DNA of 36,742 nt, taken from a virus. The notes under the pieces are model-generated. The model did not search any database. It was not told where the DNA came from and worked only from the letters and a program-made list of their open reading frames with translations. The position numbers were made by a program, and so were the translations under genes. The stretch lies in the IMG/VR virus record IMGVR_UViG_3300045996_001829, positions 1 to 36,742 of that record, one strand, 5' to 3'. Below are positions 2,427-15,310 of the stretch, one piece after another. The number at the start of each line of letters is the position of its first letter. Positions within the stretch are counted from its first letter, which is position 1.

Positions 2427-3983
2427 ATGCCACGGATTAAACCGTACGAACAACAGATTACGAGTCAAGGGGACTTCCCGACGCGAGGCGCGAACCCGTC
2501 CGACTTTGGGGGACCGGGGATGGTCAACGCCGGAACCGGGGTGCAAAACCTCGCGGCCGATGGCTTTCAGATTCAGCGGTTCTTGCTGGCGAATAAATCG
2601 CGGCAGGAAGTGACCGACGCCGAGACGGGCCTCCTGAGATTGGCTGCGGATACTGAGCAAGAACTGATGGCCCGCTATAAAGCGTGGAAGCCGGGGGATC
2701 CGTCGTTGGCGGAATCCTATCAAGGGATCATCAAACAGCGGCTCGATAACTTCGGCTACACGGAAGACGGCACGGAGAAGTACGAGACGCAAGCGGGCAA
2801 CCATGCGTTTCGCACCGGGGCCGAACGGCTATCCGCCCAAGCCCTCAAACACGCTTCACAGCTTGACGCGGATCTGGCCGGCAAAGCGGCCGTCCTCCAA
2901 TACAACGAGACGGTGGCGAAGCAAGGGAACTTCTTGCAAGCCCACCCGAATTTCTACGAACTCCGCAAAGAAGAATTCGGCTCGATCATCGACAATCCGT
3001 ACGGCGTGTATAGCACGATCCCCGGTGTCGAGCGCGAGAAGCTCAGACAAGAAGGCACGGCCGCACTCGCGTATGCTGCGGCCCAAGGGCATATCCGCCG
3101 AGCCCCTCACGTCATGCTCGAGAAGTTTCGTGATCCCGCGTTGGCTCAAGACGAACAATATGGGTGGATGACGCGCGATATTCCGGCGAGCAAGTTCGAT
3201 GATTTGATCCGACAGGCCAACACCGAAGCCCACGCCCTCGAGACTGAACAAGCGCGGATTGAAGCGGAACGGAAGCGCCAAGCGATCGAACTTTCTCGCG
3301 CGAAAGAAACGGAGTTGGTCGAGAAACTCCTGTTGCACCAGCAAGACCCTAAGCACAATCCCGCGATGACGTCGGGGGATGTGCTGGAAGCACTGGACGG
3401 CGGGATGGACGGGGAAAAAGGCTTGACGATGTGGCGCCTCCTCGAAGCCCAAGCCAAGGAAGATCCCTATAAGCCGGTCCATACAAATCCGGCCGTGGAA
3501 AACATGCTGTTCAAGCGCATCCATCTTCCGGATAACGACCCGAGAAAGATCATCGAGTTGGATGAGGTCATTAAGCATAAGTCCCAACTGAGTTGGTCCT
3601 CGTTCAACTATCTGAAGCAAGAGATCATCGACAACCGCTCCCCAGAGGGCAGCGTCTTCAACAAAGAGAAAGCGGAATTCTATAAAGCCTACGAGCAACA
3701 AGTCCTCAAACCAGGACCGTTCGGGATCTACGCGGACCCGACAAACGGTGGTCATTGGCTGCGCTTCAAGGCAGATACGGAAGAGGCGATCAAACACATT
3801 CGCAAAGAGGGGGGCAATGCTCGGGACGTGTTCAATCCCAAGAGCCAACATTTCAGAGGCTCGAAAGAAGTGTTGAGTCAGTACACGGCGACCGGCTTCG
3901 GGTCAACCGAAACATCATCGGCCCCGGCCAAACCCCCGGCTGAACGGAAATCACTCGATAGCATCTTTGGAGTCAAACAGTGA
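2427..3983 (+). CDS. Internal virion protein (gp15-like position)
   Basis: The 518-residue product is predominantly helical and charged, with a Glu/Arg/Lys-rich coiled-coil-like region around residues 270-300 (ETEQARIEAERKRQAIELSR). No enzymatic motif is visible. Position and size fit the middle-sized ejection protein of podoviruses, although sequence alone does not prove homology with T7 gp15. The stop overlaps the GTG start of the next gene (GTGA), indicating translational coupling and a joint role in the internal core. Confidence 0.6.
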   Translation: MPRIKPYEQQITSQGDFPTRGANPSDFGGPGMVNAGTGVQNLAADGFQIQRFLLANKSRQEVTDAETGLLRLAADTEQELMARYKAWKPGDPSLAESYQGIIKQRLDNFGYTEDGTEKYETQAGNHAFRTGAERLSAQALKHASQLDADLAGKAAVLQYNETVAKQGNFLQAHPNFYELRKEEFGSIIDNPYGVYSTIPGVEREKLRQEGTAALAYAAAQGHIRRAPHVMLEKFRDPALAQDEQYGWMTRDIPASKFDDLIRQANTEAHALETEQARIEAERKRQAIELSRAKETELVEKLLLHQQDPKHNPAMTSGDVLEALDGGMDGEKGLTMWRLLEAQAKEDPYKPVHTNPAVENMLFKRIHLPDNDPRKIIELDEVIKHKSQLSWSSFNYLKQEIIDNRSPEGSVFNKEKAEFYKAYEQQVLKPGPFGIYADPTNGGHWLRFKADTEEAIKHIRKEGGNARDVFNPKSQHFRGSKEVLSQYTATGFGSTETSSAPAKPPAERKSLDSIFGVKQ

Positions 3984-6900
3984 CACCGGTTCAAGAAGCA
4001 TTGAAAGAAGGCTATAGCCAAGACGAGATCAACAGCTATCTCGCGGAACGCTCGCAGCAAGCGTTAGCCGAAGGCTACACCCCACAGGAGGTTCAGCAAT
4101 ACATCCGTGAGAACGTCCACCAGCAACCGGAGTTCAACAAGACAGCGATCGCAGCCCCGGCCCATGACACGCTCGCAGCACGGCCGTCCCCCACGACACT
4201 TGGGGAAGCGATTGAAACCGGCTGGGGCTGGTCGACGATGAGCCTTGGGAAATCAGCATTCAGTGGAGAAGGCAAGCTGCCCGAAATGGATCTCTCGAAT
4301 TCTCCCTGGTATCTGCGTGCGGCTGGCAATCTCTCCACCTTTGTGGGCGATGCGCCAGCGATCATCGCGGGCTATGCGATGGGTGGGGCGAATCCGATCA
4401 CGGGAGCGGGCGGCGCCTTAGCCCTTCCAATGGGATTGAGGAAAGTGTTCATCGACGCAATCGAACAGGGCCAAGCGATCGACAAAAAGGATTTCGCCAC
4501 ACGCGCGATCGAGACGATTTGGGAAACGGCGAAGGGGTGGGTGACTGGGGCCGCGACGGCCGGCGTGGGTGGCAAAGCGGCCAAAGACTTGGCGAACGCA
4601 GCAATCCCGTCTGCAGCCAAAACCATTATTCCAACAGCGGCCGAGCTTGCCACGCTCACAGAAGTCAGTGCTCGACTCGAGGGCCATGCCCCAGAGCCCC
4701 AGAGTTTGCTCGATAACGCTTTGCTGTTGGGTGTCATGAAGACCGTGACCCCGTGGTCTTATCCGCAGCCTCCGAAAGTCATGAAAGACATTTACGTGAA
4801 AACTGGCACGCACCCGGATGAAGTCTCTCTGGATGCCATGCGCGGGGATCGCGGGGTGTGGCAGGACACGCTCGATGGCGCGATGCCGAAGGCGTACCAG
4901 GAACGGGTGGAGATCGAACCGACTGGGCAGACGCAAGCGCAGAGAGCCCCGTCACAAAAGATGCCCGCTTCACCAACGGAAGAGTCGGGAGAGTTCTTGT
5001 ACCACGGGTCTGATAAATCCGGGGCTGATGCCATTAAAAAGCAAGGGGCGCTCGGTGGGCACACGGAAAGAACGTGGCTGACTGAAGATCGAAAGATTGC
5101 TGAAGCGTACGCGAAACAAAAAGGTGGTGAAGTCTTCAAAGTCCGGAAAAGCGATGTTCCACCCGAGTTATTGGAAGAACAGAACATCGAGGAAATGTCG
5201 GGCAACAAGTTTTACTCCATTCCGACGTTCGGCCCGTGGCGTGATGCGCGCGTGCCGTTTCAGAAGGAGGAAGCGAGCCAAGCTCCACCGCCTCCGACAT
5301 TGACCCCCGAGCAACAGGCCCAAGCTCGCGCCTTCATGGAACAGCCCTTTGCGGCCGTGCCTCAGATGCCGAACGAACCCTCACGGCCCACGCACATGAA
5401 TTACAACCGGATTGATACGGCTGACGAAACAAAACAAACCCTCTCGCGGCTCTCGGAAATTTATGAAGCGAAGATCCTCGAGAAACGGCAAGCCCCCAGA
5501 ACGTGGGAACAGTCGACAAACGACGCGGCTCAAGTGCTCTCCGATCTCCTCGATGCCTCACCGAAAGAAGTGATGGCGTTCTTGAACGGGGGCAAAGGCC
5601 CCTCGGCTACTGCCCAGTTATTGGCCCGTAAGGAGTTGGCACTAGGGTTTATGGAAGACCTGATGCGCTCTCGTGCGGCTCTTAAAGCGAAGGGTGATGA
5701 AGCGACCCCGGAAGACATCGCCGCGTTCCTCGCCCAAGTGGAACGAGTCAGCAATGTGCAATCGAGCTTCCTGGGACATCGCGCCGATACCGCTCGCGCC
5801 TTGAACGCGCTGAAGTCGACGAAGCGTATCGCAGAGCGATCCCAAGCGATTGTCGATGCGGTCAACTCCTACGGTGGCCCGGAGAATGTGGCGAAGCTGG
5901 TCGATATGTTGGGTGAGTATGACTCCCCCGCACAAGTCGCGAAGTTTGCCAAGGAAGCGACCAAGGCGACGAAGTGGGAAATGGTGGTCGAAGCGTGGAA
6001 AGCCGGGTTGGTGTCCGGATTGAAAACCCACGAGGTGAACTTCCTCTCGACGCTGGCGTTCACGGTCTTGCGTTTGAACACCGAAGCGATCGCAGCGGTG
6101 CAAGGCTTGGCACGCTCGGGCCCCGACAAAGTGTACATGAGCGAATTGCCGGCGAGAGTCTTAGGGCTCACCAAAGGCATGTATGACGGGATGAAAGCGG
6201 CCGGCGCAGTCCTTCGGACAGGTGACAACCTCGAAGCCGCAAAGACCGATCAGAAGGGCCCTGCGATCCCTGGTAAGGCCGGTGAGGTGATCCGCACCCC
6301 CTTCCGGATGCTCTCAGCTGAAGACACCGTACTGAAAACGATGAACCGACAGGCGGAACTCTATGCCCAAGGGGTCCACAAAGCCCTCGATGAAGGACTG
6401 AAATTTGGCACCGATGCGTTCTTCAAGCGTGCGGTGGAACTGGCGACGAACCCGACTGAATCGATGGTCGAAGCGGCCGATAAAGCGGCAGCACGCTACA
6501 CGTTCAACATGCCCCTCGGTCCTGCTGGGCAAGCCTTTCAACGGTTCGTGAAACTCGCCCATCTCGAGATGGTGTTCCCGTTCATCTCGACACCAGGGAA
6601 CATCTTCAAAGAAACGGCCCGCATGACACCGGGGTTGAACCTCGCGATCAAGGAGTGGCGGGAGGATTACGCAGCCGGTGGCGCACGCCGCGATAAAGCG
6701 ATGGCGGAAGTCACCCTCGGCGCCTCGATCATGGGCGCGGTGGTGCTCATGGCGATGCAAGGGCAGATCACGGGCAACGGCACCCCGGAGAAAGGTCATC
6801 GAGCGACGGAACGCGCAGCCGGGTGGAAACCCTATGCGGTGAAAACCCAAGTGGGTTATGTCGATGGCTACCTCCGGATGGCCCCGATCGGACCGCTCAT

Positions 6901-7666
6901 TGGTCTCGCAGTCGACGGATACGAATTCTCGAAATACATGACGAGTGAAGAACGCGATCAGTGGTCGCGCATGTTGGCCTTCGCCTTTGCCCAGAACGTC
7001 ACGAACCAAACCTTTTTCACGGGCGCCGTCAACCTCGTGAACGTCCTGCAGGATCCGAGTCGGTATGGCGAGAACTACTTTGAAACCCTCGCAGCGACGG
7101 CAATCCCACAAGCCGTGGGACAGACGGCGCAAGAACTCGATCCGCTCCTCCGAGAGATTCATGGAATGCGGGAAGCGATGTTGGCGCGTATCCCCGGTCA
7201 ACGCGAAGGATTGCTCCCGAAGCGTGATCTCTTTGGGAAGCCGATCGACAACCCCGAGCACTTGTGGTTCGGCAGTCCGTTCACTGTCTCGCCCGTCAGC
7301 ACCGATAAGGTCCGAACGGAAGCGGCACGGATCGGCTTTGCCACTCCGACGATCCCGAAAAAGATCGATGTCGTCCCGACTGTGCGCTTGGGCAACGATG
7401 ACAAAGTGGCGCTCTCGCCCGAACAACGCGATGTGTTTGCGTCGAAGTCCGGGCAATACGCCTACGAAGAACTGAACAAGATGGTGCATCAACCGGCGTG
7501 GGATATCACCCCCGACATCATCAAGCGGAAAGAATTTGAACTGATGTTCAAGAAAGCTCGGGACCGGGCAGAGAAAGAACTGTTCGAACAGATTATCAAG
7601 ACGGACGAGGCGAAAGACCGGATCAAGAAAACCGAGCAAGCCGTGAAACCGAAGGAGAAGAAATGA
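3980..7666 (+). CDS. Large internal virion protein (gp16-like position) with ADP-ribosyltransferase-like segment
   Basis: The product has 1228 residues and starts with GTG behind a TGGAG site. It opens with two related helical repeats (EALKEGYSQDEINSYLAE and QALAEGYTPQEVQQYIRE, about residues 6-45). A Gly-rich hydrophobic stretch follows (121-154). Residues 337-415 look like an ADP-ribosyltransferase/PARP-type fold: YHGS at 341-344, then WLTEDRKIAEAYA at 366-378 and a GEVFKV strand. The C-terminal third (FPFISTPGNIFKE onward) contains a hydrophobic helix, ASIMGAVVLMAMQ. It recalls the large polyvalent-protein-associated (LPD38-type) region. No lysozyme or transglycosylase motif was recognised, unlike T7 gp16. 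The role is inferred to be DNA ejection. Confidence 0.65.
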   Translation: MTPVQEALKEGYSQDEINSYLAERSQQALAEGYTPQEVQQYIRENVHQQPEFNKTAIAAPAHDTLAARPSPTTLGEAIETGWGWSTMSLGKSAFSGEGKLPEMDLSNSPWYLRAAGNLSTFVGDAPAIIAGYAMGGANPITGAGGALALPMGLRKVFIDAIEQGQAIDKKDFATRAIETIWETAKGWVTGAATAGVGGKAAKDLANAAIPSAAKTIIPTAAELATLTEVSARLEGHAPEPQSLLDNALLLGVMKTVTPWSYPQPPKVMKDIYVKTGTHPDEVSLDAMRGDRGVWQDTLDGAMPKAYQERVEIEPTGQTQAQRAPSQKMPASPTEESGEFLYHGSDKSGADAIKKQGALGGHTERTWLTEDRKIAEAYAKQKGGEVFKVRKSDVPPELLEEQNIEEMSGNKFYSIPTFGPWRDARVPFQKEEASQAPPPPTLTPEQQAQARAFMEQPFAAVPQMPNEPSRPTHMNYNRIDTADETKQTLSRLSEIYEAKILEKRQAPRTWEQSTNDAAQVLSDLLDASPKEVMAFLNGGKGPSATAQLLARKELALGFMEDLMRSRAALKAKGDEATPEDIAAFLAQVERVSNVQSSFLGHRADTARALNALKSTKRIAERSQAIVDAVNSYGGPENVAKLVDMLGEYDSPAQVAKFAKEATKATKWEMVVEAWKAGLVSGLKTHEVNFLSTLAFTVLRLNTEAIAAVQGLARSGPDKVYMSELPARVLGLTKGMYDGMKAAGAVLRTGDNLEAAKTDQKGPAIPGKAGEVIRTPFRMLSAEDTVLKTMNRQAELYAQGVHKALDEGLKFGTDAFFKRAVELATNPTESMVEAADKAAARYTFNMPLGPAGQAFQRFVKLAHLEMVFPFISTPGNIFKETARMTPGLNLAIKEWREDYAAGGARRDKAMAEVTLGASIMGAVVLMAMQGQITGNGTPEKGHRATERAAGWKPYAVKTQVGYVDGYLRMAPIGPLIGLAVDGYEFSKYMTSEERDQWSRMLAFAFAQNVTNQTFFTGAVNLVNVLQDPSRYGENYFETLAATAIPQAVGQTAQELDPLLREIHGMREAMLARIPGQREGLLPKRDLFGKPIDNPEHLWFGSPFTVSPVSTDKVRTEAARIGFATPTIPKKIDVVPTVRLGNDDKVALSPEQRDVFASKSGQYAYEELNKMVHQPAWDITPDIIKRKEFELMFKKARDRAEKELFEQIIKTDEAKDRIKKTEQAVKPKEKK

Positions 7667-9003
7667 CCATCTCAAATCAGAACAACCGTGTGACCCAAGT
7701 CGGCAACGGGAGCACCGATACCATTGCCATCCCCTTCCCGGTGCATACGCCCTATGACGATCTTCGGGTGGTGTCGGTGGTCATTGCGACCGGGGTGGAA
7801 ACCGACGTCACGGCCGAATCAGGCTGGACGTGGAGTGGGAGTGCCGACAGCCAAGGGCACTACCCCAACGGCGGGACGATCACGATTGTCGCTGGCGCCT
7901 GGGCGTCGACGATCCGGATGGTGGCCTATCGGGATCCTGACCCTATCCAAGAACTCGACCTCGTGGAAGACGACAGTCTCCCGGTGGAAGAGGTGGAAGC
8001 GGCCATCGATTATCTGACCATGTTGGTTCAACGGCTCGACGAACTGTCCCAACGGACGCTCCGACAACCGGACGGGGATGCAGATGAAATTGTCGCGATG
8101 CCGGCCACCGTCGAGCGTGCGTCCAAGTATCTCGGGTTCGATGCGGCCGGCGATCCCGTCGCGCTCGATGCCCCGACCGATACGGCGCTCACGTCGGCCT
8201 TTGTCGAAACCCTCCTCGATGATGCGAACGCCGGGGCCTTTGTCGAAACCTTGGTCACGGCCCTGTCCGCGCTCACGGCTCCTGCGGTGGGCGATCTTCT
8301 GGCGATCTCCGATGTGAGCGACGGGGATCTTGGCTTAAAAATCACCCTCGCGAATCTGTTCAAGGTGATCAACGAGTTCACGGAAGATACCACCCCGGAC
8401 TGGGCCGCAGATTTTCTCGCGACCTACGACGCGAGTGCGTCAGCGGCCAAGAAGATCAAACTGAGTTCGCTGGTCGCCTCCCAAGCGGAAGTGAACGCGA
8501 TGACGAGCACGGCCAAGCTGTTGACCCCCAACCACAACAAGCTGATTCCAGGGACGGTCATCGCCACCACCTCGGGCGGGAATGTGACCTTGCATAGCGC
8601 GATCCCGGCCGGCGTGAAGCGGATTACGGTGATGTTCAACGGGGTGTCGTTAAGCGGGACCGATAACATCCTCATTCAAATTGGCGATGCGGGCGGGGTC
8701 GAGACGACGGGCTACATCTCCTCATCCTGCAATCAAGCCGGCACGGTGGTGAACTCAACGGCCGGGTTTATCCTCGGCGTGGCGTCGGCAGCGGGGGTGG
8801 TCAGTGGGGCCCTCACGCTCTCGTTGTTGAGTGCGGCCGGGTTTCTCTGGGCGGGCGCGGGCGCCGTCAAAATCTCCACGAGTGCCACCAGCTACTTCGC
8901 GGGCGAAAAGTCGCTGACGGCGGAATTGACACAACTCATTATGGTCGTGACCGGTGTCGACACCTTCGACGCGGGCTCGGTCAGCATCCTCTATGAAAGG
9001 TAA
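7663..9003 (+). CDS. Tail fibre protein with T7 gp17-like N-terminus
   Basis: The product has 446 residues. Residues 1-135 match the phage T7 tail fibre attachment domain pattern: IPFPVHTPYDDLRV, a GGTITIVAGA strand, RDPDPIQELDL and DSLPVEEVEAAIDYL...LSQRTLRQP. The middle is low in cysteine and rich in Ala, Thr and Asp, with beta-rich repeats. The C-terminus (about 290-446) has short Gly/Ser/Ala-rich strands that probably bind the receptor. The ATG overlaps the upstream stop (ATGA). The N-terminal domain would fix the fibre to the tail encoded upstream. The receptor cannot be predicted. Confidence 0.8.
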   Translation: MTISNQNNRVTQVGNGSTDTIAIPFPVHTPYDDLRVVSVVIATGVETDVTAESGWTWSGSADSQGHYPNGGTITIVAGAWASTIRMVAYRDPDPIQELDLVEDDSLPVEEVEAAIDYLTMLVQRLDELSQRTLRQPDGDADEIVAMPATVERASKYLGFDAAGDPVALDAPTDTALTSAFVETLLDDANAGAFVETLVTALSALTAPAVGDLLAISDVSDGDLGLKITLANLFKVINEFTEDTTPDWAADFLATYDASASAAKKIKLSSLVASQAEVNAMTSTAKLLTPNHNKLIPGTVIATTSGGNVTLHSAIPAGVKRITVMFNGVSLSGTDNILIQIGDAGGVETTGYISSSCNQAGTVVNSTAGFILGVASAAGVVSGALTLSLLSAAGFLWAGAGAVKISTSATSYFAGEKSLTAELTQLIMVVTGVDTFDAGSVSILYER

Positions 9004-9007
9004 TCCC

Positions 9008-9325
9008 ATGAAAGGCTATCGCAAACCGAGCGGCGTCTATATCGAACTCGACAATACCGTGCCTGTCTCGGACTCGTTGGTCGAGGTGGCGTTACGGCCG
9101 TCTGCCGATCACGTCTTCGCGGACGGATGGCAAAGCGACCCGTTGAACGCGGCCGTGTGTTGGCGGGCGAAAACGGTGGCCGAACAGACCGCAGACAAAA
9201 ACACGGAACTGCAAGCCTTCCTCGACACCGCAGGGGGCAAGGCGCTGAAAGCGTTAGTGACGGTGCTGATCAACAAGAACGTGCTGACGCTCGCGGAAGT
9301 CCGCGCGGTGTACCGGACGTTATAA
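9008..9325 (+). CDS. Small conserved-type protein after the tail fibre
   Basis: The product has 105 residues. The start at 9008 has AAAGG 7 bases upstream; an earlier in-frame ATG at 8954 lies deep in the fibre gene and is unlikely. The N-terminus reads like a fibre-associated strand (GYRKPSGVYIELDN), followed by a helical C-terminal half (EQTADKNTELQAFLDT...LINKNVLTLAEVRAVYRTL). Its position suggests a fibre accessory or assembly protein. No recognised family. Confidence 0.6.
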   Translation: MKGYRKPSGVYIELDNTVPVSDSLVEVALRPSADHVFADGWQSDPLNAAVCWRAKTVAEQTADKNTELQAFLDTAGGKALKALVTVLINKNVLTLAEVRAVYRTL

Positions 9326-9341
9326 CCAGGAGGGACAACGG

Positions 9342-10589
9342 ATGAAGACATTGCTTGGGCTGTTCTTGGCGCTAATGGCGTTGGCCCCGCCTGTTGTGTT
9401 CGCAGAACTCAGCGACACGAAAGCGCACTCCTTTCATTCGGCCGCGACCGTGGATGGCGATGGGACCGATTTTGTCAACGCCGATAAATACACCTCGATG
9501 GCGGTCACCGTGACGATCACCAACACGGCGACGGTCACCTTCAAAGTGTCCCAGAACGGGACGGACTTTGCCGAGAAATTGTGTACGCCTTCGGACAGCA
9601 CGACGGCCGTGACTAACGTGTCGTCCACCGCACAAGTCCAGTGCAACATCGCGGGCTATGCGGCCGTCCGGATGGTGATCTCCGCGTGCTCCTCCTGTAC
9701 GGTGACCGTGACCGGCACCGTGACGACCGCGCTCTTTGGCGGCGGGGGTGGCGGCAGTGGCGCCACGCCCACATTCGACCAAGTGATTGCCCAAGGGGCG
9801 GAAACGGATAACGCCACCTCACTCGCCAATGCCGTCAAAATCGGCGGGACGTTGAAGTGGTGCATTTACGAAGACGCGGCCACAGGGTTGCAACTGCGGC
9901 CCTGTACCGCCTCGGATGTCAAACAAACCATTCTCACGAATTTCAACGGGGGATTTTACGACGAGGAGAACGATTGCTGGATCCTGCAGATTGACCCGGA
10001 TGCGGCGTCGACCCTCGCGGCCTGGACCTTTACGTGTAGCGCGACCAAGCCGAAGAAAAGTCTCTTGCTCACGGCTGATGCGTTCTACATGAAAAGCGGC
10101 TGTACGTTGACGACCGAATCGGCGTTGATCACGGCGGGCTTAACCGAACCCTACATCACCTGTACCGACAACGACGCGAGCGGGTTTCACCGCACGCTCG
10201 CCATGCCGGATTCCTGGGACGGGGGCACGGTCACCTTCAAAGTGTTTCTGACGAATGTGAACGCGACCCCGGCTAACGACTACCGGCTGGATCTCTCGGC
10301 CGAATGCGAAGCCAATAGCGAAGTCATCGGCACCTCGATCTCGGGCACGGGGGAAGTCTCGGCCCTGTTCGACTTTGATAACACCGGCACCTGTTCGACG
10401 GCCTGTGCGCAATTCGATCTCGCGACCGTGACGACCGCGGCCCATACCGTCAACGGCACCTGTGCGGGGGGCAACCTCTTCCGGATCAACGCGCTGGTCG
10501 ATGCAACGACCACCACGACCGCGCAAGTGGCCGACGTGAAGATCATCGCCGTCCGGATGGAGTACGGCATCTCCAGTCTCAGCGACTAA
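9342..10589 (+). CDS. Sec-exported, cysteine-rich two-module protein
   Basis: The product has 415 residues with a clear AGGAGGG site upstream. Residues 1-21 form a signal peptide: Lys2, a Leu-rich core and a VFA cleavage site before Glu22. The mature part has 14 cysteines, an even number, which suggests disulphides formed outside the cytoplasm. Residues 22-132 are a Thr/Val-rich beta sandwich-like module, joined by a poly-Gly linker (133-140) to a second beta-rich module. No known enzyme motif. A signal peptide is unusual for a virion component. The gene lies between the tail fibre and lysis genes as the first of four such genes. It may act in the periplasm or at the cell surface, or have been derived from a bacterial exported protein. 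Confidence 0.75.
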   Translation: MKTLLGLFLALMALAPPVVFAELSDTKAHSFHSAATVDGDGTDFVNADKYTSMAVTVTITNTATVTFKVSQNGTDFAEKLCTPSDSTTAVTNVSSTAQVQCNIAGYAAVRMVISACSSCTVTVTGTVTTALFGGGGGGSGATPTFDQVIAQGAETDNATSLANAVKIGGTLKWCIYEDAATGLQLRPCTASDVKQTILTNFNGGFYDEENDCWILQIDPDAASTLAAWTFTCSATKPKKSLLLTADAFYMKSGCTLTTESALITAGLTEPYITCTDNDASGFHRTLAMPDSWDGGTVTFKVFLTNVNATPANDYRLDLSAECEANSEVIGTSISGTGEVSALFDFDNTGTCSTACAQFDLATVTTAAHTVNGTCAGGNLFRINALVDATTTTTAQVADVKIIAVRMEYGISSLSD

Positions 10590-10601
10590 AAGGAGTCACC
10601 C

Positions 10602-11333
10602 ATGAGTTTGCTGTTCATCCTCCTGTTGAACCTGTTGTTCCCGTACCAGGCCCACGCTGCGACCCCGACCTTTGACGTGGCGAATACCCCGTGCGTGTTG
10701 ACCAATGAAAGCACGACGTCAGCCTGTACGCACGATCCGGGGGTACTGAGTAATGGCATCGCGCTAGTCGCGGTCACGACGCAGGACGGCGCGGCGACGA
10801 ACATGACTGCCCTGACCTACGGCGGGGTGAGCATCATTGCCAACGAGATCGGCAAGATTCAATACGCGGCCACCTGCTGGATTGGGTTCTATTACTATCT
10901 GAGCCCTCCGTCCACGTCGCAGTCAGTCCTCGCGACCTTCGATCAAGTCCAAAACCGGCACATCATCAGCGTGCGGACCTACGCCAATGTGAACCAGAGC
11001 GCCCCGCTCGGAACCGCTGTCCCCGTCGATGACTTCGACACCGCGAGCCCCTCCGAAGCGCGCGCCACGGTTTCGAGTGCGGCGGGCGAAGTGGTGGTCG
11101 ACGCGGCGGCGATGTGTAGCACGACCGCAGCCAGCTTTACCTCGACCACGCAAACGTCTCGCGTGAACACGGGATCGGCAAGTAGCCACACCCACGCGGG
11201 CGCAGAAGCGGCAGGCGCGGCCTCGGTGGTGATGTCGTGGACGCTGAACGAAAGTCGGAACAACGGAATTATTGCGGTGCCGCTGAAACCCTCGTCCTCG
11301 CGACGGGCCGCGCTGCCGCTGGGTCTGAACTAA
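10602..11333 (+). CDS. Sec-exported beta-rich protein
   Basis: The product has 243 residues, with the RBS AAAGGAG upstream. Residues 1-19 are a short, very hydrophobic signal peptide with AHA before Ala20; it lacks the usual positive charge. The mature part has four cysteines. The pattern of LVAVTTQDG...LTYGGVSI...YYYLSPP...VLATF and a late SYANVNQSAPLGT-like segment resembles a jelly-roll domain often seen in bacterial surface and secreted proteins. A basic tail (SSSRRAALPLGLN) ends it. Function unknown. It is the second gene of the exported cassette. Confidence 0.7.
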   Translation: MSLLFILLLNLLFPYQAHAATPTFDVANTPCVLTNESTTSACTHDPGVLSNGIALVAVTTQDGAATNMTALTYGGVSIIANEIGKIQYAATCWIGFYYYLSPPSTSQSVLATFDQVQNRHIISVRTYANVNQSAPLGTAVPVDDFDTASPSEARATVSSAAGEVVVDAAAMCSTTAASFTSTTQTSRVNTGSASSHTHAGAEAAGAASVVMSWTLNESRNNGIIAVPLKPSSSRRAALPLGLN

Positions 11334-11351
11334 CACGAAGGAGAACGGCTC

Positions 11352-13574
11352 ATGATGACACGCTGGCTGGTGGTCCTCACGGTGCTCTGCTTGGCGACTC
11401 CCGCATTGGCCGCAACGAAGTATGCGGATACCGCCGCAACAGGATGCGAGGCGGGAACGAACACCGATTATGACCCCACGGCGAATGCGGGGGCTGGTGG
11501 ATGCGGGGCTGGCAGTGCCACGATCTACATTACGTCAACCTTGTCCACGGCACTTCAGGCCCTTGTGAAGAGTGACATTCTGTACTTCAGGGCTGGCACC
11601 TATACCCAAACATCGACCTACGGGGATGCGGCGGGGGAAACCTGGGCCTGTCAGTCTGGAGGATGCCCGACTTCCTGGGACACGGCGACACAAGTGAGAA
11701 ACTACCCCGGCGAGGCGGTCGTGTGGCAGACACGCACGCTGAACTTTGACGGGGACTTGAGTACGGGCGGGGCCGCGTACTTCGTTATTCAAGGTGACAG
11801 CCGCTCGAATTTCATTATTGAAATGCAGGGGGCATCGCAGAGCATCACTGGCTTGCGCGCGGTAGACGGGGCTCACCATATTCGCCTCAAAAAGACGACG
11901 TTGAGAAATTTTAGTGAGCATGGCATCGGGGTGGGCGTCAATAGTTCTACCACCGTGCCGTCGTTTATCGAAATCATTGACAACCTTGTGACGAATAATG
12001 GGGATACCAACAATAGCTCTGGCACCACACACGAACATGGGTTTTACCCAAGCGGCTGCAACGATTGTTTAGTGGAATACAATTACTTCTACAGCAACCA
12101 CGCCTACGCGATTCACGGCAATTCGGCCAGTGCTCGTCTCAATCGCATGGTCATGCGGTACAACCTGATCGAAGGGCGAAACGCCACCAGCGGTACCAGT
12201 TTTGGCATCTTCATCGACGATGGAGCGGATAACGTCATCTACCGCAACCTCATTCTGCTAAAGGGCGGTGCGACTGGCACGCACACCGGCTGTATACAGT
12301 TGGGCAGTAACGCGGTGCGGACCTTGGTCTATCACAACACCTGCTATGGCACGGGCTCTGGGACTGGGTTACAGATTTCCGGGAATGCGACGAATACCTC
12401 CGTCATTAACAACATCTGGAATAACATCACGGCGGCGAATACCTTTCAACTCCTGGCTGGCTCTGGCACCACCGGCAACGGGAACCTCTGCCCATCGAAC
12501 GATGCGGATATTTCTGGAGCCTGTGATGTGAATACCACCACCCCTGGGTTTGTCAGTGCCGGCACCACGTTCTCCCTGGCGGCAAGTGCCGCAGCGATAG
12601 ATACAGGCGTTGCCATCGCTGGCTACAGCTACAACGGCTCGCTTCCAGACATCGGGGCCTTTGAAACCGTCACCCATGCGAGTTGTGTGGTGGAAGATGG
12701 GGACGCGAGCACATTGCGAGCGACGTATACCAATAACGTGTTTCCCCCTATGCAGATTACCGATTCTACCGGCGTGACCACGCGGAAGGCTGGTGCGGCC
12801 AACGCGCCGACAGCGGTGACGATCACGGGCGATACCCGTGTAGACATTACGCTGACCAATGCCATTGTAAACGGCAACGCGGTGGACTGGACCTATGCCC
12901 AAACCGGCGACTTACGCGATTCTGCGAACATTGGCGGGACATTGACACAGGAAGCCCTGGCGCACTCGCAAACCTCCTGTACCAACAATGTCGGGGCGGC
13001 AGCCTCCCATCTGTTCATCCAGGCTGCGTATAAATGGCACGGCTTACGCGGGACGGAAGCGGCACCCGTCGCCCTTCGCACGGCTGGGGGAGCGTCAGAG
13101 AATCTTGACATTAAACCGATGCCCGGAGGGAAGGCACGGCTACGGTTTAGCGTCACCTGTAGCACGGCAGATTGTCCACCGGAAGCCTTCTACCCGTATG
13201 TGGATGTGAACAGTGCAGGGTCGTATGCCGTGGTCCCTGATACCTTTGGCAGTGCCAACATCGCGTTTTGCGGAACCGGTATTGAGGCCGATGTGCCGAC
13301 CTCTGGTGAGGCGACCACCGGTCAACTGTCTACCAGTGGGACGTTTGTGGCCGGGGCATTGGTGCGAACCAGTAACGCGATTCCTACGGTGGACCTTGAT
13401 AATGACCCCGCCTCGAAAACTGAACTGGAATACTGCTTTGTCTGGGATACCGATGCGTCAGCGAACGCCACCTACGATTTTCGTTTGCGAAAACAGGACG
13501 GGTCCGTACTGGACACGTACACCGTGACGCCACGCGCCACCATTCAAGCGAGTGGGGCAGGAGGAGGATTCTGA
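11352..13574 (+). CDS. Sec-exported right-handed beta-helix protein
   Basis: The product has 740 residues. The start has GAAGGAG 8 bases upstream; the second Met at 11355 is equally possible. The signal peptide ends with ALA at residue 20. The mature chain has 16 cysteines. Residues of about 150-400 are Asn/Gly-rich parallel beta-helix repeats (IIDNLVTNNGD, VEYNYFYSNHAYAIHGN, MRYNLIEGRNATSG, VYHNTCYGTGSG), as in pectate lyase and NosD-like folds. About 455-545 resembles a SwmB-type Ig-like repeat (RVDITLTNAIVNGNAVDWTY). A beta-rich C-terminal domain follows. Phage beta-helix proteins are often polysaccharide depolymerases, but catalytic residues cannot be assigned here, and a signal peptide is atypical for a tailspike. 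Confidence 0.75.
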   Translation: MMTRWLVVLTVLCLATPALAATKYADTAATGCEAGTNTDYDPTANAGAGGCGAGSATIYITSTLSTALQALVKSDILYFRAGTYTQTSTYGDAAGETWACQSGGCPTSWDTATQVRNYPGEAVVWQTRTLNFDGDLSTGGAAYFVIQGDSRSNFIIEMQGASQSITGLRAVDGAHHIRLKKTTLRNFSEHGIGVGVNSSTTVPSFIEIIDNLVTNNGDTNNSSGTTHEHGFYPSGCNDCLVEYNYFYSNHAYAIHGNSASARLNRMVMRYNLIEGRNATSGTSFGIFIDDGADNVIYRNLILLKGGATGTHTGCIQLGSNAVRTLVYHNTCYGTGSGTGLQISGNATNTSVINNIWNNITAANTFQLLAGSGTTGNGNLCPSNDADISGACDVNTTTPGFVSAGTTFSLAASAAAIDTGVAIAGYSYNGSLPDIGAFETVTHASCVVEDGDASTLRATYTNNVFPPMQITDSTGVTTRKAGAANAPTAVTITGDTRVDITLTNAIVNGNAVDWTYAQTGDLRDSANIGGTLTQEALAHSQTSCTNNVGAAASHLFIQAAYKWHGLRGTEAAPVALRTAGGASENLDIKPMPGGKARLRFSVTCSTADCPPEAFYPYVDVNSAGSYAVVPDTFGSANIAFCGTGIEADVPTSGEATTGQLSTSGTFVAGALVRTSNAIPTVDLDNDPASKTELEYCFVWDTDASANATYDFRLRKQDGSVLDTYTVTPRATIQASGAGGGF

Positions 13575-14017
13575 TGACACGGACTTTTGCATGCCTGGCG
13601 ATCTTCTTGTACACGGCCACCTTCGCGTCAGCCGCATCCCTCTTTTGGGACAAGCCCCGTACGGGCAACATCAACCTCGAACGGGCTGACTTTGAAGCGG
13701 GGCCCTTCGCCTTCGTCGCGACCATCTCGGCCGAAGTGCCCTACAAACTCACACCGGGAGACTTCGGCTATTTCCGGGTGACCTACCTCGGGGTGCCCAG
13801 TAACGTGGTGCATTACAGCTTGGACGTGAACGGCAACGAAGTCTTGGAACGGCTCACGAGTATCGAAGGGGCCTTGATCAAACTGGTGCCGACGACCAGC
13901 GGGAACCTCAGTGTGAAACCTCTCGATGCCAACCGGATCGAGATCACGGGCTTGGCGTGTAGCTCTCTGAAAACCACCGGCACGGGATTGAAGCGCGTGG
14001 TGGAGTGCGTGAAATGA
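13574..14017 (+). CDS. Small Sec-exported protein
   Basis: The product has 147 residues. The ATG overlaps the previous stop (TGATG) and is preceded by AGGAGG. The signal peptide ends with ASA at residue 20, and the mature part has two cysteines near the C-terminus. The body is beta-rich (INLERADFEAGPFAFVATI, FGYFRVTYLGVPS) and could be an Ig-like fold. No family recognised. It is the last of the four exported genes and overlaps the lysis group by ATGA, so its expression is coupled to both. Confidence 0.7.
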   Translation: MTRTFACLAIFLYTATFASAASLFWDKPRTGNINLERADFEAGPFAFVATISAEVPYKLTPGDFGYFRVTYLGVPSNVVHYSLDVNGNEVLERLTSIEGALIKLVPTTSGNLSVKPLDANRIEITGLACSSLKTTGTGLKRVVECVK

Positions 14018-14502
14018 CCAAAGACGAATTGAAGACGCTCACGTTCTTTCGTGCGGGCGAACGCGATCTCTCGGGCCGGGTGCTCGACTGGGAGAAGGAG
14101 GGGCACTATGCCACGGTTCAACTGCTCGAAGCCCTCCGACGACGGCTCGATTCGCCCCTTAGCATTATCCGCCTCGCGCATCCGGGCAAACCGACTGCGA
14201 TCGATTGGTGCTGCCTTGGGCGTCGATACCGAGACGTCGTGTGTGAGGTCTTGCGACTGCCCCATGCCAGCTACGGGTTTTACAGTGGCAATTCAATCCA
14301 CACCGACCTCCGGGCATTTACGGAGCTTCCCGCGCGCTGGCTGGCTGTCAAGGAGGCGGAAAGACCGCTCCTCGGACGACTCGACAAAACCGTGACCAGT
14401 GTCGCCAGTGGGTGGGCGTATTTGCCGTGGACGTGGGATGGGCTGCAGCTTGTGATCGACCTCGCAGAGAAAAAGTCGGGGGAGCATCCGAGCGGAAACT
14501 AG
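14014..14502 (+). CDS. Putative peptidoglycan peptidase (M15-like endolysin)
   Basis: The product is 162 residues long; the ATG at 14014 overlaps the upstream stop. Residues 47-100 carry a pattern like the DD/LD-carboxypeptidase M15 group: a LSIIRLAHPGKPTAIDW segment (His56, Asp64) and, 32 residues later, GFYSGNSIHTDLR (His96, Asp98), giving possible zinc ligands H, D and H. Spacing differs slightly from the textbook motif, so this is a likely but not certain endolysin. Neighbouring genes for a small membrane protein and a holin support a lysis role. Confidence 0.55.
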   Translation: MTKDELKTLTFFRAGERDLSGRVLDWEKEGHYATVQLLEALRRRLDSPLSIIRLAHPGKPTAIDWCCLGRRYRDVVCEVLRLPHASYGFYSGNSIHTDLRAFTELPARWLAVKEAERPLLGRLDKTVTSVASGWAYLPWTWDGLQLVIDLAEKKSGEHPSGN

Positions 14503-14511
14503 GAGGGGACC

Positions 14512-14655
14512 GTGAGCGACGACGTACTCGAGCAACGCATTCGAAAGATGGAAAGCGAAATCGCGGCGGTGAAAACCGCCTGGACCGTCTTGAAGTATAT
14601 CGGCACGATTGCCCTCGCGATCGTGGGGGTCTGGGCTGCCATCAAAGGACATTAA
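14512..14655 (+). CDS. Small coiled-coil membrane protein of the lysis group (XhlA-like)
   Basis: A 47-residue gene starts with GTG at 14512 behind a very strong AGGAGGGG site. Residues 5-22 form an amphipathic heptad pattern (VLEQRIRKMESEIAAVKT), followed by one membrane helix (about 27-44, YIGTIALAIVGVWAAI) and a short basic end. This layout matches haemolysin XhlA-type phage lysis accessories. Gene order peptidase, this, holin supports it. Confidence 0.7.
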   Translation: MSDDVLEQRIRKMESEIAAVKTAWTVLKYIGTIALAIVGVWAAIKGH

Positions 14656-14666
14656 GGAGGGGATCT

Positions 14667-15110
14667 ATGTTTGGCGAAGAAATTCTCGCGGTGATCAAAG
14701 GACTGGGCGATACGGTCATTAAAGGCATCGACGAACTTACGATGTCGCCAGAGGAAAAGATGGCGGCAAAAATCCAGGTGCAACAGGCGGTGTTTGAATC
14801 GAAAAAAGCCACGATGGAATTCGTCTACAAGATGGTGAGTTCCGCCCAGAACCGGGAAATCCAGACCGGGGATAAGACCACCAAGCAACTCGCATGGCTC
14901 TACACGGGCGGGTATTTTGGGATCTTCGGGCTCCTCATCTCGGGCGTGGTCAAGGTCGATCCCGACATCAAGCAGTTGGTGGATGTGCTGATGGCGGTCT
15001 TAACCGCAGGGCAATACTCCATCCTCACCTATTACTTCGGCAGTTCCCACGGCTCACAGCAAAAGGACCGCACGCTCGATCGGGCGTTAGGGTCCAAAGA
15101 GCCGGCATGA
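14667..15110 (+). CDS. Holin
   Basis: The product has 147 residues. The ATG at 14667 follows AAGGAGGGG; longer in-frame readings start inside other genes. A helical, charged N-terminal half (residues 1-72) is followed by two membrane segments (about 76-95 and 104-124), then YYFGSSHGSQQKD, which is characteristic of the 3TM-type holin family of phages and gene transfer agents (DUF3154/PF11351, from memory). It would form the membrane lesion that releases the endolysin. Confidence 0.8.
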   Translation: MFGEEILAVIKGLGDTVIKGIDELTMSPEEKMAAKIQVQQAVFESKKATMEFVYKMVSSAQNREIQTGDKTTKQLAWLYTGGYFGIFGLLISGVVKVDPDIKQLVDVLMAVLTAGQYSILTYYFGSSHGSQQKDRTLDRALGSKEPA

Positions 15111-15310
15111 CCTCGATCTGGATTCTCACGGTGTGGATCCTGGGTACCACGCTCTCGTTTGACGATGGGCCACACTACTCGCTCGACGCCTGTAAACAAG
15201 AAGGCTTTCGGCAAGTCCGCGACTATCAGGACGGGAATATCCGCGCAGCCTTTGAGTGCGAGGAGATCCCCATTCCCCCGTCCTGCGACGATCCCCAAAC
15301 CTGCGTCTAA
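15107..15310 (+). CDS. Small membrane-anchored or exported cysteine protein
   Basis: A 67-residue product whose ATG overlaps the holin stop (ATGA). Residues 1-17 are a hydrophobic segment that may be a membrane anchor or signal peptide; no lipobox is present. The remainder is hydrophilic with four cysteines (C29, C50, C59, C66). It could assist lysis, but it lacks outer-membrane spanin features. Function unknown. Confidence 0.6.
   Translation: MTSIWILTVWILGTTLSFDDGPHYSLDACKQEGFRQVRDYQDGNIRAAFECEEIPIPPSCDDPQTCV

Follow-up and report, generated by a model that had tools for sequence, protein, structure and literature searches.

The record IMGVR_UViG_3300045996_001829 of IMG/VR, analysed here over its complete length of 36,742 bases (the window), carries four consecutive genes, designated A to D, whose products feature signal peptides and even numbers of cysteines. 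Export and disulfide bonding of these products are strongly supported by the sequence, and their folds together with a mosaic pattern of sequence exchange support their assignment as glycan-binding adhesins with exchangeable tips. The genes would hence form a late cassette of Sec-exported, disulfide-stabilized glycan-binding proteins of tail-fiber type. A preliminary description had proposed a phage cassette that exports cysteine-paired proteins late in infection. This core finds strong support in orthologues, cysteine parity, the paired gain and loss of cysteines, and homologues lacking a signal peptide; the description as a whole is partly supported, and among the functions it offered, enzymatic processing by C has become less likely.

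Predicted export and cysteine pairing

Coordinates, lengths, cleavage motifs, and mature cysteine counts of the four genes (14, 4, 16, and 2) were confirmed on the sequence, as was the single cysteine of the upstream tail fiber. All four products display what is expected of substrates of the Sec pathway and signal peptidase I—a short n-region, a hydrophobic core, small residues at −3 and −1, and a true start codon—as judged by a home-made rule based on the hydrophobic core and the −3/−1 residues and not by SignalP. The starts that yield signal peptides lie just 3′ of good Shine–Dalgarno sites: AGGAGG for A, AAGGAG for B, GAAGGAG for C, and AGGAGGAGGA for D. Antisense open reading frames (ORFs) of at least 120 residues pass the filter in 6% of cases, and in 1.2% if a Shine–Dalgarno site is also required. 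Because of these low rates, the run of four is not attributable to chance, the probability of which is roughly 1e-5 to 1e-8; wrong start codons were rejected on the same rates and the ribosome sites. By the same filter, none of the 13 other window genes scored has a signal peptide, the nearest miss being an internal virion protein (1902–2423) with a hydrophobic N terminus. This filter is not the sole basis of the comparative evidence, which comes from orthologues, cysteine parity, and covariation.

Across 24 loci, the number of mature cysteines is even in 74 of 77 signal-peptide proteins (at least 120 residues, with at least one cysteine) versus 49 of 112 other proteins. The contrast corresponds to p ∼1e-18 if the proteins were independent, which related proteins are not. 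In the families of A and C, approximately 60% of the cysteine columns can be matched to another column whose pattern of presence and absence is exactly the same; for the comparably rare residues W, H, M, Y, F, K, and R, the same measure gives 6 to 30%. By this pattern, cysteines are gained and lost in pairs in both families.

The C-terminal domain of A, which bears the motif MPxSWDxGT, also terminates ordinary tail-type proteins that lack a signal peptide. Such carriers are gp74 of EBPR siphovirus 2, a Xanthobacter locus, and the loci L043, L045, L046, and L048. The ordinary tail fibers among them (gp74, L045, L046, and L048) share the homologous domain with A but have neither a signal peptide nor the conserved disulfide pair. 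The pair in question, C322/C374 in the carbohydrate-binding module (CBM) of A, occurs in 18 of 18 exported copies—including L012 and L039, where both partners have shifted position together, and L036, whose signal peptide is ambiguous—and in 0 of 10 copies without a signal peptide, two of which are identical. Acquisition of disulfides by the domain therefore seems to have gone along with acquisition of export.

Folds, exchangeable tips, and recurrence

Searches of A–D against Pfam and PHROGs gave no significant match. The AlphaFold model of A has a mean predicted local distance difference test (pLDDT) score of 75.5. Its residues 20–129 are predicted to form a C2-like β-sandwich of approximately 110 residues, for which XepA of the Bacillus prophage PBSX is the best solved match (Z 14.1, root-mean-square deviation (rmsd) 1.9 Å over 105 residues), followed by YomS of SPbeta (Z 13.8); NCBIfam likewise returns XepA weakly (E 0.017). 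Residues 239–410 are modeled as a jelly roll like those of CBM36, CBM35, and CBM6, with Z up to 13.0 and an rmsd of 2.4 Å (122 of 124 residues aligned). Compared with XepA, a cytotoxic two-disc pentamer, A adds a signal peptide, disulfides, and the CBM-like domain but lacks the N-terminal disc, and its model contains one β-sandwich of this kind. The window context is presumably of Gram-negative type, and B to D have no counterpart in the XepA/YomS systems.

The AlphaFold model of C (mean pLDDT 69.7) features a right-handed β-helix, as the preliminary description had predicted for one of the products. Its closest match both by fold (Z 32.3) and by profile (E 4e-21) is Pel9A (1ru4), a pectate lyase of polysaccharide lyase family 9 (PL9). 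The similarity covers almost the whole chain including the end motif GSAPDxGAFE, and Pel9A is secreted, as C is predicted to be. C differs by extra C-terminal domains, by being phage-encoded beside other exported adhesin-like genes, and at the positions that we take to be the PL9 catalytic Lys273 and the calcium ligands Asp233, Asp234, and Asp237 (Pel9A numbering). Read by eye, the aspartate positions hold G/G/Q in the family consensus and nonacidic residues in the window, and the lysine position holds V in the consensus and F in the window. Moreover, the C family has no invariant charged residue in the helix. Since the catalytic lysine and the three calcium aspartates are replaced, a binding function of C is more likely than pectate lyase activity, and activity as a polysaccharide lyase is unlikely. 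In the relatives, the place of B is taken by LamG-type or unrelated exported proteins, the B of L003 being a LamG domain. D carries a highly conserved C-terminal motif, LDANxIEITGxxCxSLKTTGxGLKRxVEC, which holds its two cysteines. Sugar binding by A–D would follow from the modeled folds.

Comparison of the window with the relative 3300045996_000284 (L002) separates a conserved core—the N-terminal half of A, the C-terminal part of C, and D—from the tips, namely the CBM of A, all of B, and the β-helix of C. A is ∼75 to 88% identical up to residue 237 and 33% thereafter; B, the most variable member, is 21% identical; C is 32 to 34% identical in the helix and 60 to 70% in the remainder; and the mature part of D is ∼89 to 97% identical. 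The exchanged block of L002 matches 3300045996_001122 (L017), with up to 72% identity in B and 41 to 65% in the helix of C, and the C terminus of C does not match. As read from these alignments, the conserved left and right parts flank one uninterrupted exchanged block, which comprises the CBM of A, the whole of B, and the helix of C; such a mosaic is typical of receptor-binding regions. With its conserved core and exchangeable tips, the set therefore has the character of an adhesin complex whose specificity can be swapped.

The cassette is no one-off feature of the window contig. Protein and profile scans of IMG/VR retrieved A-B-C(-D), with gene order and signal peptides preserved, from approximately 20 uncultured phage contigs, which answers the suggestion of the preliminary description to look for the gene block in related phages. 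Besides L002 and L017, these include 3300028802_000047 (L003), 3300045996_000198 (L010), 3300045996_000725 (L012), 3300045996_000232 (L025), 3300021440_000054 (L018), 3300045944_000168 (L020), 3300044648_000093 (L026), 3300009678_000131 (L029), and 3300012228_000001 (L037), among others. At least three consecutive signal-peptide genes are present in 15 of 22 cassette loci and 0 of 27 control phage loci; overall, signal-peptide genes number 82 of 267 versus 2 of 186. Because the cassette loci were found via these very genes, the contrast describes recurrence and not an unbiased frequency. The cassette lies 3′ of tail genes and often 5′ of lysis genes—in L029, spanin-like and endolysin-like genes follow—but it sits 5′ of the tail tube genes in L003 and L017, which indicates a movable module.

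Among 50,697 phage records, neither megablast with the region nor tblastn with A, C, D, and proteins of the relatives revealed a cultured phage with the cassette; the matches checked are tail proteins without signal peptides. On this ground, EBPR siphovirus 2 (gp74) and two Manatee Spring phages were rejected as carriers. Among genome contigs, a search with A identified one contig of a metagenome-assembled genome carrying the cassette (L053) and the Xanthobacter locus named above (L054), and a search with D gave no match. A published description of exported tail-fiber cassettes was not found in the open literature searched, outside which most subscription papers and preprints lie.

Some of these loci hold further exported genes. 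L020 (1042–8115) features five signal-peptide genes in a row, one with a tail-fiber-type domain (ITELTELTTPATGDMLEIVDVSD). An exported protein of ∼150 residues with two mature cysteines directly follows the tail fiber in L002:7518–7976 and L058:1704–2165 (− strand); it is absent from the window, where an unrelated ORF without a signal peptide takes its place. In L012 (6714–7850), an exported 378-residue protein with eight mature cysteines is encoded 3′ of D and resembles a pectate-lyase-type β-helix by eye, without a family match.

Possible destinations of the exported proteins

A–D would be made within the late gene block of a phage whose host is presumably Gram-negative. The products would cross the inner membrane, lose their signal peptides, and form disulfides in the oxidizing periplasm, steps for which the sequence argues strongly. 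Lysis would then mix periplasm and cytoplasm, and the adhesins would become accessory fibers that attach to the progeny virions or go along with them, in addition to the ordinary tail fiber. That A–D attach to, or act beside, progeny virions after lysis is the reading we prefer over free lectins, with somewhat less than even confidence. Possibly, though more tentatively still, some tailed phages use the host Sec pathway for part of the proteins with which they bind receptors: the proteins would mature by periplasmic disulfide formation and attach to the virion only at lysis, so that the final assembly step is extracytoplasmic, and one lineage would have included the T7-type docking fiber in this route.

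The strongest hint that an exported fiber may still attach to the virion comes from the locus L059 (11834–13372) on the cassette-bearing contig IMGVR_UViG_3300021440_000054. Here, a T7-type fiber is preceded by a signal peptide (start MVHVIILCLSLLLASPVLA|TVPES) with a perfect AAGGAGG site and a stop codon just upstream, and a complete docking domain follows (phrog_1640, E 9e-30). Of the 25 other docking-domain loci that were examined from the scan, none carries a signal peptide. The preliminary description had named virion decoration after lysis as one option, which gains from this fiber without being decided by it, and had noted that signal peptides are normally absent from virion proteins, a rule to which this group appears to offer exceptions. 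The T7-type docking domain was found in 7 of 24 contigs, where contigs without a match may be fragments. The docking fiber lacks a signal peptide in the four whose start was read, namely the window, 3300045996_000284, 3300045996_001122, and 3300009678_000131; the contig 3300021440_000054 is another of the seven. In the window and several relatives, the cassette thus supplements the ordinary tail fiber and does not replace it, since a docking fiber without a signal peptide is present alongside.

Several points weigh against virion attachment. The L059 fiber is a single case, and its n-region has no K or R. A–D themselves show no match to the docking domain (phrog_1640/PF03906), which within the window occurs only in the fiber at 7663–9003, so that the phage already has a normal tail fiber. 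Finally, XepA of PBSX is exported late in phage development from a lytic cassette and is absent from mature particles (PMC6834076).

Free exported lectins are a real but lesser possibility. Released at lysis or leaking earlier, such proteins would bind the surface glycans of the host on debris and neighboring cells, mask receptors or debris, prevent the trapping of progeny, and perhaps block superinfection, without ever entering the virion. XepA sets a precedent for export without presence in particles, an ordinary tail fiber is already available in the window, and late, exported, glycan-binding folds with swapped tips could track host glycans. Several exported relatives, however, feature virion-type parts: in addition to the docking domain, a Phage Tail Collar domain in L047 (E 6e-16) and tail-fiber repeats matching phrog_9942 in L003. 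Nor was any significant match of A–D to known superinfection-exclusion or moron families found in PHROGs, Pfam, or NCBIfam, an absence that is not proof.

A secreted polysaccharide-degrading set, in which C would depolymerize the matrix with A, B, and D as its carbohydrate-binding partners, is unlikely. It would draw on the relationship of C to Pel9A and on a relative, L041 (7694–12334), whose exported 1546-residue protein with 32 mature cysteines matches Chondroitinase B (PL6; E 2.5e-17) and may be an active polysaccharide lyase. The loss of the PL9 catalytic and calcium-binding residues in the C family argues against it. Of the matrix or polysaccharide processing proposed earlier, the β-helix proved right, and enzymatic processing by C has lost ground.

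Slightly less probable again is a role as lysis helpers, in which A would act on the membrane from outside as a XepA-like protein, with B to D as partners. The superposition of its N-terminal domain on XepA and YomS and the location of the cassette directly before the lysis region agree with such a role. Yet A has only the C-terminal, YomS-like half of XepA, and YomS alone is not cytotoxic (PMC6834076). In addition, L017, L018, and L020 either lack the XepA-like part or have another in its place, and B to D are without lysis features. That the N-terminal segments are membrane anchors or artefacts and the proteins remain cytoplasmic is highly improbable given the cleavage motifs, the ribosome sites, the conservation in diverged orthologues, the cysteine parity, the gain and loss of cysteines by pairs, and the difference from homologues lacking a signal peptide.

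Two further known systems invite comparison with the preferred virion-associated adhesins. With tail fibers of the T7 gp17 type, the cassette shares the position after the internal virion proteins and the combination of a conserved base with exchangeable tips; A–D differ by being exported and by having no docking domain, and the real gp17-type fiber of the window lies just upstream. Llp of T5 is an exported superinfection-exclusion protein. It would resemble A–D as a phage protein directed to the cell envelope with a possible effect on the use of receptors, and differs from them as a small lipoprotein.

Genomic context and meaning

The features of the region are compiled in the table. The four genes are consecutive, as described earlier; their placement between tail fiber and lysis genes needs the qualification that a small ORF without a signal peptide also separates the tail fiber from A.

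Table. Features of the cassette region of the window; residue ranges refer to the encoded products.
Feature	Position	Strand	Length (residues)	Description
Canonical T7-type tail fiber	7663–9003	+	446	Virion-docking domain (phrog_1640); no signal peptide; 1 cysteine
Small ORF between tail fiber and A	about 9008–9325	+	∼105	No signal peptide; no family match
Gene A	9342–10589	+	415	Signal peptide 1–21, cleavage VFA|; 14 mature cysteines
Gene A, domains				Predicted XepA/YomS-like β-sandwich 22–129; glycine linker and middle part 133–237; CBM6/35/36-like jelly roll 238–411
Gene B	10602–11333	+	243	Signal peptide 1–19, cleavage AHA|; 4 mature cysteines; variable, probably β-rich
Gene C	11352–13574	+	740	Signal peptide 1–20, cleavage ALA|; 16 mature cysteines
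Gene C, domains				Predicted right-handed β-helix related to PL9 pectate lyase ∼21–440; C-terminal β domains 441–740
Gene D	13574–14017	+	147	Signal peptide 1–20, cleavage ASA|; 2 mature cysteines; small domain, fn3-like by eye only
Holin-like protein	14412–15110 (likely start near 14667)	+		Weak match to holin phrog_3427 (E 0.027)

By gene content, the window phage is a T7-like podovirus. The + strand encodes a tail nozzle, internal virion proteins, and the tail fiber with its docking domain; the − strand encodes primase, HNH endonuclease, DNA polymerase A, a Gp2.5-type single-stranded DNA-binding protein, exonuclease, helicase, and DNA methyltransferase. The large internal virion protein has distant relatives in podoviruses of Pelagibacter, Roseobacter, and Synechococcus. 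Because head and terminase genes were not recognized in it, the window is probably a genome fragment; a scan of it for promoters and terminators yielded nothing above shuffled sequences. In the lysis region, a small ORF of ∼64 residues (15117–15310) with a hydrophobic N terminus and four cysteines may encode a further exported protein.

The close relative L007 differs in two neighboring genes. Its internal virion protein (9680–13687) is ∼95% identical over the best segment to that of the window (3980–7666), where residues ∼335–390 give a weak ADP-ribosyltransferase-like match; L007 has a HELEH metalloprotease-like stretch instead, possibly a swapped effector domain. Its tail fiber (L007:13684–15792; 702 residues) has the same ends as that of the window and a classical tail-spike β-helix inserted midchain.

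The cytoplasm is the assumed site of synthesis and attachment of tail fibers and spikes, and its reducing milieu disfavors disulfides. The recurrence of the arrangement in many uncultured phages suggests that some phages make fiber-like adhesins outside the compartment of virion assembly. A widespread cassette of exported, disulfide-bonded proteins would mean either that lectins of as yet unassigned purpose are secreted around lysis or that the virion is partly completed outside the cytoplasm. The cassette also gives a name to a large group of phage proteins now annotated as hypothetical and accounts for their signal peptides. For the production of phage adhesins and depolymerases, periplasmic expression would be advisable for proteins of this kind.

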